From an uncultured Eubacteriales bacterium (GTDB taxonomy: Bacteria > Bacillota > Clostridia > Saccharofermentanales > Saccharofermentanaceae), in NCBI GenBank assembly GCA_900317035.1, contig ONFC01000021.1, positions 1 through 44,608 on the forward strand: 44,608 nucleotides of DNA. Reading direction: 5' to 3'. Under the pieces are notes generated by a model. The model saw only the letters and a program-made list of their open reading frames with translations. It did not search any database and was not told the origin of the DNA. Made by a program: the position numbers and the translations under genes. Positions 42,037-43,801 of this stretch are shown in pieces (the stretch's first letter is position 1; each line of letters opens with the position of its first letter).

Positions 42037-42669
42037 TTATTTTTTGTTACTCTTCTTAGTCTTTTTCGGGGGCATCCTTCTTTTTAATGCTTCTTTAGAT
42101 GCTACAGAGTATCCGAAAAACCCGAGCATCCTACCGATAGAATAATAATCGCCATGGCAATATGTCACTAGATGCGCCTTTTCCAGGCATATTTTTCCTT
42201 TACTGTTCAGAAGGCGTTCATCAATAGACACACCGACAACTTCCGCCAGGAACATATCGTGAGAGCCAAGTTCAAGGATATCCTTGAGCTTACACGAGAT
42301 CGATAGCGGCGCTTCTTCGATCATCGGAGCATAGCTCAGTTTGGGGGCAGGAACAGCATGAAGTTCCATTTTTTCAAACTTATCCTCATTTGCTCCTGAT
42401 CGTACTCCGCAGTAGTCACAGGCCTTTGCAAGATCTTCTGTGACCAGATTGATGACAAACTCCTGCGTCTCGCAGATCAGATCATGGGAATGACGGGATT
42501 TACGGATAGAAACCGAAACCATCGGCGGTTCGGAATTCACGGTACCCGCCCATGCACAGGTAATGATATTCGGTTTCTTATCAATCTTCTCCGGTTCTTT
42601 TCCTGCACAGGACACCATAACTACCGGAACAGGATTGAGCATAGTGGAAGGCGGCATTTCTATTTTCAT
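42037..42669 (-). CDS. Flavin reductase-like FMN-binding protein
   Basis: A 210-residue protein of the flavin reductase-like split-barrel family. Segments PVVMVSC, NIITCAWAGTVNSEPPMVSVSIR and EFVINLVTEDLAKACDYCG match the FMN-binding core. A Lys-rich tail (MPPKKTKKSNKK) ends the protein. Such proteins bind FMN or FAD and reduce flavin or act as flavoredoxins; the partner is unknown. The ATG at 42669 has an AAAGGAG site, and the gene lies 24 bases after the Ogt fusion, so they probably form one transcript. Confidence 0.85.
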   Translation of the reverse strand: MKIEMPPSTMLNPVPVVMVSCAGKEPEKIDKKPNIITCAWAGTVNSEPPMVSVSIRKSRHSHDLICETQEFVINLVTEDLAKACDYCGVRSGANEDKFEKMELHAVPAPKLSYAPMIEEAPLSISCKLKDILELGSHDMFLAEVVGVSIDERLLNSKGKICLEKAHLVTYCHGDYYSIGRMLGFFGYSVASKEALKRRMPPKKTKKSNKK

Positions 42670-42693: not shown

Positions 42694-43785
42694 TTATGCC
42701 AGGTGTATACCAAACATCTCGTGATTGAGAAGGAATTCCTTGATCTCAAGTCCACCGGAAAAGCCGACAAGACGGCCATCCTTACCAATAATACGGTGAC
42801 ATGGAACAAGTATTGGAAGCGGATTGTCACCACAGGCAGCACCGACAGCACGTGTTAGATTTCTCGCAGACACTTTATCCCCGCCGGTTAGATCCAGGGC
42901 GATATCCTCGTAGCTGCAGGTCACCCCATAAGGAATAGTACTGACTTTATCCCAGACTTTCTTCTGAAAATCACTGCCATGCAGCGGTTTCGCATGAATA
43001 GTAAACTCTGTTCTGCGCTTCATGAAGTATTCGTTCAGTTCTTTCATGCATCGCATGACTTCTTTCGGGAACTCCATATCGAGAAGGTCCTTATATTCTG
43101 GCGAACCTTCTTCTTTCAGGACACCTGAGCTATCGGCAATTCCTGTACGGATCGCCACATTTCTCTCCAGATTGCCCTCCACCTGCTTTCCATATGAGAA
43201 GAACCTGGTCATCTCGATCACTTCATTATCTCCACGGATCGCAACCACGCCTTTTCGGAACGGCACAAAGCCGACAGAATAGTCCGGATAATCCGAGTCA
43301 AGAAGTGAAAACAGCGCAGCATCACAGTACGCATCGCCGATATATAGTGCCTCATCAAGCACTGCATCCTGCTGCATATGACAGGAAATCAGTATTTTTT
43401 CAGAGAAAGTGTCCGTAACCGGAATAAGCATCGATATACGATGGATCTGCAGATCAAAAAACGCATAGCGCAAAAGGCTGTCGAAAGCTGATCTTCTGTC
43501 TTCGTCCGATACCTGAAAAGGCTCATCCGGTGAAGGATCATTAAGGAAGTACATTACCGCACCGGCGCTTCTGTTTCTGGAGGAATAATTCTCCAGGCCC
43601 AAAACCCCGAAAAGCAGTTCATTTTCATTCGTGATCTTGGAAGCCGTGAAGTACTTCCGGTTCGTATCCGCGAGAGCAGCCCGGATAAAAGAAGGCACAT
43701 CATCCGTAACGGGATCGAGTATCCTCTTTTCCCGGATCTTTGCTGAATCCAGTATTCGTATTGGCGATAATCGAATGTCCGCCAT
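42694..43785 (-). CDS. GNAT-like acetyltransferase fused to Ogt-type DNA methyltransferase
   Basis: A 363-residue protein. The C-terminal ~100 residues are a methylated-DNA-cysteine methyltransferase (Ogt/MGMT) that removes alkyl groups from O6-guanine. They show SDFQKKVWDKVSTIPYGVTCSY, the active Cys329 in VPCHRIIG, and LVGFSGGLEIKEFLL. The N-terminal ~150 residues look like a GNAT acetyltransferase of the RimJ type (RYAFFDLQIHRISMLIP), although the usual acetyl-CoA loop is not clear. A middle segment (about 165-240) is unassigned and may be the degenerate N-terminal domain of Ogt. ATG 43785 is chosen because of GAGGAG six bases upstream. A flavin reductase-like gene follows. Confidence 0.8.
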   Translation of the reverse strand: MADIRLSPIRILDSAKIREKRILDPVTDDVPSFIRAALADTNRKYFTASKITNENELLFGVLGLENYSSRNRSAGAVMYFLNDPSPDEPFQVSDEDRRSAFDSLLRYAFFDLQIHRISMLIPVTDTFSEKILISCHMQQDAVLDEALYIGDAYCDAALFSLLDSDYPDYSVGFVPFRKGVVAIRGDNEVIEMTRFFSYGKQVEGNLERNVAIRTGIADSSGVLKEEGSPEYKDLLDMEFPKEVMRCMKELNEYFMKRRTEFTIHAKPLHGSDFQKKVWDKVSTIPYGVTCSYEDIALDLTGGDKVSARNLTRAVGAACGDNPLPILVPCHRIIGKDGRLVGFSGGLEIKEFLLNHEMFGIHLA

Positions 43786-43801
43786 CACTAGCTCCTCACA
43801 T

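Follow-up and report, generated by a model that had tools for sequence, protein, structure and literature searches.

Ogt is among the most widespread of the DNA repair enzymes, and in Ada the alkyltransferase is joined to a regulator domain. Other alkyltransferase fusions have been described, these being AGTendoV of Ferroplasma, with an endonuclease V partner, and AGT-2 of C. elegans, with a histone-like one (PMC10779285, accessible portion); within that portion of the review, the terms "acetyltransferase," "GNAT" and "dihydrofolate" do not occur. No description of a GNAT-Ogt or DHFR-Ogt fusion was found in the literature searched, a coverage with most subscription papers outside it. A GNAT fold carried by another enzyme and having lost its P-loop is found in human O-GlcNAcase, the pseudo-acetyltransferase domain of which did not bind acetyl-CoA (PMC3814719, accessible portion). 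According to the same portion of that paper, the P-loop for CoA has the form [Gln/Arg]-x-x-Gly-x-[Gly/Ala] and lies at the start of a helix (PMC3814719).

The window, by which is meant the whole stretch of 44,608 nucleotides that was analysed, encodes a protein that invites comparison with each of these systems. Like AGTendoV, AGT-2 and Ada, it has an alkyltransferase joined to another module, but its partner domain is a different one. Its predicted Ogt part is complete, with both domains and the whole catalytic set, as in stand-alone Ogt/MGMT (PF01035, TIGR00589; M. tuberculosis OGT, PDB 4wx9), but is preceded by an additional GNAT-fold domain of ~166 residues. Residues 1-166 are akin to the SpeG, BltD and RimJ/RimL acetyltransferases (PDB 5ix3, 6cy6, and 6c37) in fold and in profile; unlike these enzymes, the protein is without the CoA P-loop and the catalytic Tyr and is fused to Ogt. 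O-GlcNAcase differs in turn by its unrelated partner enzyme, its eukaryotic origin and the C-terminal position of its GNAT domain (PMC3814719, as far as accessible).

Two halves of the fusion protein

When the window's single sequence was scanned, PF01035 was the only Pfam family found on the fusion protein and no family matched the GNAT half; a PDB search with the same single sequence gave a sub-threshold match to a solved GNAT structure (E 0.045). A profile built from residues 1-167 of the window protein and 40 relatives, however, matched the BltD/SpeG-type polyamine acetyltransferases at E 7.5e-17. Scanned singly, 15 of these 41 members matched Acetyltransf_3 at E values of up to 1 (best 6.6e-06), and the distant relative L182 exceeded the gathering score of that family (30.3 versus 25.4 bits) in a scan of its full-length protein. 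An initial structure model made from 15 close relatives rendered the Ogt half poorly (pLDDT 62.3); a second one, for which 36 unfused Ogt sequences were included in the alignment, was used instead (51 rows; pLDDT 91.9, pTM 0.80). Fold comparison of the latter matched the GNAT half to SpeG (Z 19.5, rmsd 2.3 over 158 residues) and to RimL and RimJ (Z 18-19), such that, according to the model, residues 1 to ~166 are a SpeG/RimJ-type GNAT fold.

In the second half, PF01035 was matched at E 7.4e-27 (93.5 bits; cut-off, 27) over residues 273-357, as numbered from a GTG one codon upstream of the ATG, and the fusion gene is the sole PF01035 match in the whole assembly. Tyr292, Arg312, Asn321, Pro328, Cys329, His330, Arg331, and Glu356 (ATG numbering) are invariant in all 49 aligned members; among them are presumably the acceptor Cys of the PCHR motif, the Arg finger, the Asn hinge, and the Tyr and Glu of the Ogt active site. 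An intact catalytic set of this kind leads us to infer that the Ogt half would be active in alkyl transfer. In the fold comparison, the M. tuberculosis OGT-DNA complex (PDB 4wx9) aligned to model residues 169-360 with Z 18.8 and an rmsd of 2.3 over 151 residues. Since the alignment to M. tuberculosis OGT begins at residue 168/169 and runs to 360/363, residues ~167-245 are assigned to Ogt's own N-terminal domain, and the modelled protein is in this respect a complete two-domain Ogt (~167-363), the RNase H-like N-terminal domain included.

An earlier sequence-only reading of this DNA had proposed the fusion of a GNAT-like front half to an O6-alkylguanine repair domain, and the Pfam, profile and fold matches (Table 1) agree with it. 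It had further likened the front half to a RimJ-type acetyltransferase and had named structure prediction as the means of overturning this assignment; the prediction and the fold match upheld it instead. The middle of the protein, which it had left unassigned, proved to be the N-terminal domain of Ogt. Chance or an artefact (a frameshift or an assembly join) as the source of the fusion was rejected, because the same frame is unbroken in most genomes of the family and in the loci of the genus.

Table 1. Positions of the features of the window and of four DHFR-containing chains from family f2.
Feature	Position	Strand	Evidence
Fusion gene, predicted pseudo-GNAT + Ogt, 363 aa	42694..43785	(-)	ORF analysis (ATG at 43785, stop ending at 42694); ribosome-binding site
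Ribosome-binding site GAGGAG, 6 bases before ATG of fusion gene	43792..43797	(-)	Sequence
SpeG/RimJ-type GNAT-fold domain (modelled), residues 1-166	43288..43785	(-)	Profile E 7.5e-17 to SpeG; fold Z 19.5
CoA P-loop slot [QR]xxGx[GA], residues 90-95 = FQVSDE, motif absent	43501..43518	(-)	Slot scan; SpeG alignment
Residue 132, Leu at presumed catalytic Tyr site of SpeG/BltD	43390..43392	(-)	Column Tyr in 0/49; profile alignment
Ogt N-terminal (RNase H-like) domain (modelled), residues 167-245	43051..43287	(-)	M. tuberculosis OGT alignment from 168/169
Ogt helical + DNA-binding/active-site domain, residues 246-363	42697..43050	(-)	PF01035 E 7.4e-27; Z 18.8 to OGT-DNA
PCHR motif, residues 328-331, presumed acceptor Cys329	42793..42804	(-)	Invariant in 49/49
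Flavin reductase-like gene, directly after fusion	42037-42669	(-)	PF01613, E 1.6e-31
Solute-binding protein-like gene, extracellular type, truncated at contig edge	43802-44608	(-)	By eye
DHFR + very diverged GNAT-like domain + Ogt chain, f2	L191:642-2180	(-)	Pfam DHFR_1, PF01035
DHFR + very diverged GNAT-like domain + Ogt chain, f2	L196:155-1666	(+)	Pfam DHFR_1, PF01035
DHFR + very diverged GNAT-like domain + Ogt chain, f2	L187:137-1678	(-)	Pfam DHFR_1, PF01035
DHFR + very diverged GNAT-like domain + Ogt chain, f2	L195:675-2345	(-)	Pfam DHFR_1, PF01035

Distribution and origin of the fusion

Surveyed among relatives, the fusion was borne out: the fused form is the usual Ogt of the host's family and occurs in each of the order's four families. 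The order is probably Saccharofermentanales, as judged solely from one named relative, Ca. Scatonaster; Mageeibacillus sp. UBA3781, the nearest relative with a name, is classified elsewhere by NCBI. The N-terminal domain was matched in 106 of the 115 genomes of the family; of the nine others, G088 carries its Ogt at the edge of a contig and the remaining eight are also devoid of PF01035 matches. A search of the order with the full-length query found matches in 174 of 188 genomes, unfused Ogt being included in this count, and front domains of ~140-190 residues occur in members of all four families. That of family f2 is strongly diverged; a comparison of the profiles linked it to the f1 domain (probability 96.5, E 7.3e-10), and the f2 profile gave a weak GNAT match, RibT, when compared with the PDB (E 0.0072). 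Unfused Ogt within the order was found in genus g29 of family f4 (G181-G185), where the frames are of 178-191 aa. A second, unfused copy accompanies the fused one in nine genomes of f2 and in G158 of f3 (L252-L260, L262); in the Ogt tree the nine copies from f2 fall together in a single tight cluster, and the f3 copy (L252) clusters with other Clostridia.

In 391 genomes of the class, the top matches outside the order, among those listed, were frames of ~150-240 aa, a few long ones excepted, and a GNAT front was absent from the two long frames inspected (G254 and G261). A phylum sample of 398 genomes, searched at E 1e-45, held no match with a frame longer than 235 aa except that of the window's own genome. 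No GNAT-fronted form stood out in either sample, for the class among the matches listed.

For the Ogt tree, 128 sequences were taken, three contig-edge partials were omitted and near-copies were thinned, leaving 63 fused and 37 other rows, 100 in all. Rows were labelled as fused by the length of the frame ahead of Ogt, with five labels corrected manually (L109-L111, which have GTG starts; L103, labelled as Ada; and L229). A single change separated fused from other rows, compared to a mean of 30.1 upon shuffling. The branch parting the two has moderate support (SH-aLRT 83), in a tree with a weak root (48) and several long rows. Four unfused g29 rows adjoin the fused group, and one of the four (G185, L242) retains the flavin-reductase neighbour. 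A single origin of the fusion in the order fits these data; genus g29 would then be either primitively unfused or the product of a later loss. The fusion probably arose on a single occasion, in an Ogt gene with a flavin-reductase-like gene already at its side, and has been passed down through the order since.

Neighbouring genes and DHFR chains

Three genes follow one another on one strand of the window: that for the presumed solute-binding protein, which gave no NCBIfam match, then after 16 bases the fusion gene, and after a further 24 bases the gene with the flavin-reductase domain. The solute-binding protein gene lies just before the fusion in 14 of the 15 loci of the genus, L043 being cut by the contig end, and the flavin reductase-like gene lies directly 3' of the fusion in all 15. 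The gene order kept in the genus then continues with rny, ymdB, lspA, and rluD; as a functional clue, the neighbours in these loci yielded no mechanism. Among 18 further loci, the flavin reductase-like gene was within the fetched stretch in 12 (f1, 5/5; f3, 4/5; f4, 3/3; f2, 0/5), and at the f3 locus L247 it is ~1.1 kb from Ogt. The same gene was also seen beside unfused Ogt (L242 and L250).

In family f2, at least 13 of the 22 genomes searched have a DHFR gene immediately 5' of the Ogt gene and on one contig with it, and DHFR and Ogt share one frame in at least five of the 22 (G120, G127, G129, G130, and G131). All four of the chains scanned with Pfam (Table 1) carry both DHFR_1 (PF00186) and PF01035. 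The separate upstream DHFR gene of related f2 genomes is the only full DHFR match there. Because the front module stays while its neighbour changes, being flavin reductase or DHFR, a role tied to Ogt is more likely than one tied to the neighbour, and the chains of DHFR, GNAT-like domain and Ogt offer a concrete route to the module's job for the same reason.

The acetyl-CoA site and the role of the front domain

The CoA pocket was assessed from the sequence and the alignment. The strict P-loop, [QR]xxGx[GA], was found around the slot in none of the 49 aligned members, the residues in the window being FQVSDE; a relaxed form, xxxGx[GA], was found around it in three, and exactly at the slot in two, L181 (TAAGKA) and L182 (TGAGEA). 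A scan of the whole N-terminal half returned strings of the strict pattern elsewhere than the slot in several rows. The Tyr and Asn columns were taken from the alignment of the 41-member profile to BltD/SpeG. Column 132, the tyrosine column of SpeG/BltD, which we take to be that of the SpeG-type catalytic Tyr, holds no Tyr in any of the 49 members, the residues there being Leu, Ala, Val, Ile, Phe or a gap. At column 125, presumably that of the conserved GNAT Asn, Asp is present in 37 of 49 and Asn in four, L182 among them. We conclude that the front half is a putative pseudo-acetyltransferase, both in the window protein and in the majority of its relatives. The GNAT halves of L181 and L182 are the least degenerate; because both keep the relaxed P-loop and L182 keeps the Asn, some distant relatives such as these may still bind CoA.

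An active acetyltransferase is disfavoured by the missing P-loop and Tyr, and caution is warranted against labelling the fusion protein an acetyltransferase. The link between acetylation and alkylation repair that the sequence-only reading had suggested finds no support in these counts, its fusion and GNAT fold having stood. Its other suggestion, that the front half has become a scaffold for binding proteins, is compatible with the data as a putative role.

Constraint on the GNAT half appears modest, since this half evolves faster than Ogt: the median identity to the window is 24% versus 59%, and the median dN/dS is 0.218 for GNAT versus 0.154 for the N-terminal and 0.074 for the C-terminal domain of Ogt, these ratios being rough with synonymous sites largely saturated (pairs with dS < 2 numbered 28/105, 38/105, and 29/105, respectively).

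The explanation that we favour, and regard as reasonably probable from the sequence evidence, is that of an Ogt with a pseudo-acetyltransferase module at its front that serves structure or docking. The Ogt half would flip out the alkylated base and accept its alkyl group at Cys329 in an irreversible step. The GNAT fold, derived from a SpeG/RimJ-like ancestor, would no longer transfer acetyl groups and would act instead in self-association, in the binding of a protein partner or in giving Ogt additional support on the DNA. If Ogt has retained a pseudo-acetyltransferase throughout an order, alkyltransferase fusions would gain a further type of partner, and bacteria an example of a GNAT that lost its old job and took on a new one as a scaffold. 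A bolder form of this proposal, tentative and somewhat doubtful, is that the pseudo-GNAT is a dedicated docking module tying Ogt to a partner, so that suicide repair would take place in a larger assembly throughout the order and the DHFR fusion would hard-wire it further in f2. If so, DHFR in front would put the supply of nucleotide precursors and the repair of alkyl-guanine on one chain.

It is also conceivable, if unlikely, that a different small molecule, such as a polyamine, a nucleotide or a CoA precursor, occupies the former substrate or cofactor pocket and that this tunes Ogt. Consistent with such a sensor are the polyamines bound by the ancestor-like family SpeG, the GNAT fold that is intact in the model and its fold comparison, and the invariance of Asp13 (49/49) and near-invariance of Arg35 (48/49). 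The most strongly conserved GNAT positions (Phe109, Glu/Asp140, Leu143, and Asp155), however, coincide in the profile alignment with positions that are structural in the parent family.

A true bifunctional enzyme, with a GNAT half that acetylates a protein, a polyamine or a small molecule by way of an unusual CoA-binding loop, is given little chance. The nearest fold matches are to active SpeG and RimL/RimJ enzymes, two aligned members keep the relaxed P-loop and the GNAT half is under purifying selection, but the strict P-loop and the catalytic Tyr are missing from the entire alignment and the usual Asn is mostly replaced by Asp. Moreover, Asp, Pro or Ser at the glycine region of the P-loop abolished acetyl-CoA binding in a bacterial GNAT, according to the accessible portion of the report (PMC3814719).

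It is equally improbable that a dead GNAT, fused by chance, is tolerated as a neutral passenger that the joined chain requires for its folding alone. Its fast evolution, with the low median identity given above, and the strong degeneration in family f2 are in keeping with a passenger, but the domain has been retained in nearly the whole family and in all four families of the order, its fold is predicted with confidence and its dN/dS is well below 1.

Lastly, a relative of Ada was rejected, as Ada_Zn_binding (PF02805) had no match in the window's own genome. The long frame at the Clostridium locus L103 is, by eye, an Ada-type protein; in another unusual Ogt fusion, from the class sample and outside the order (L229, G261:C153), the long extension in front of Ogt is of another kind and, by eye, NYN-like.
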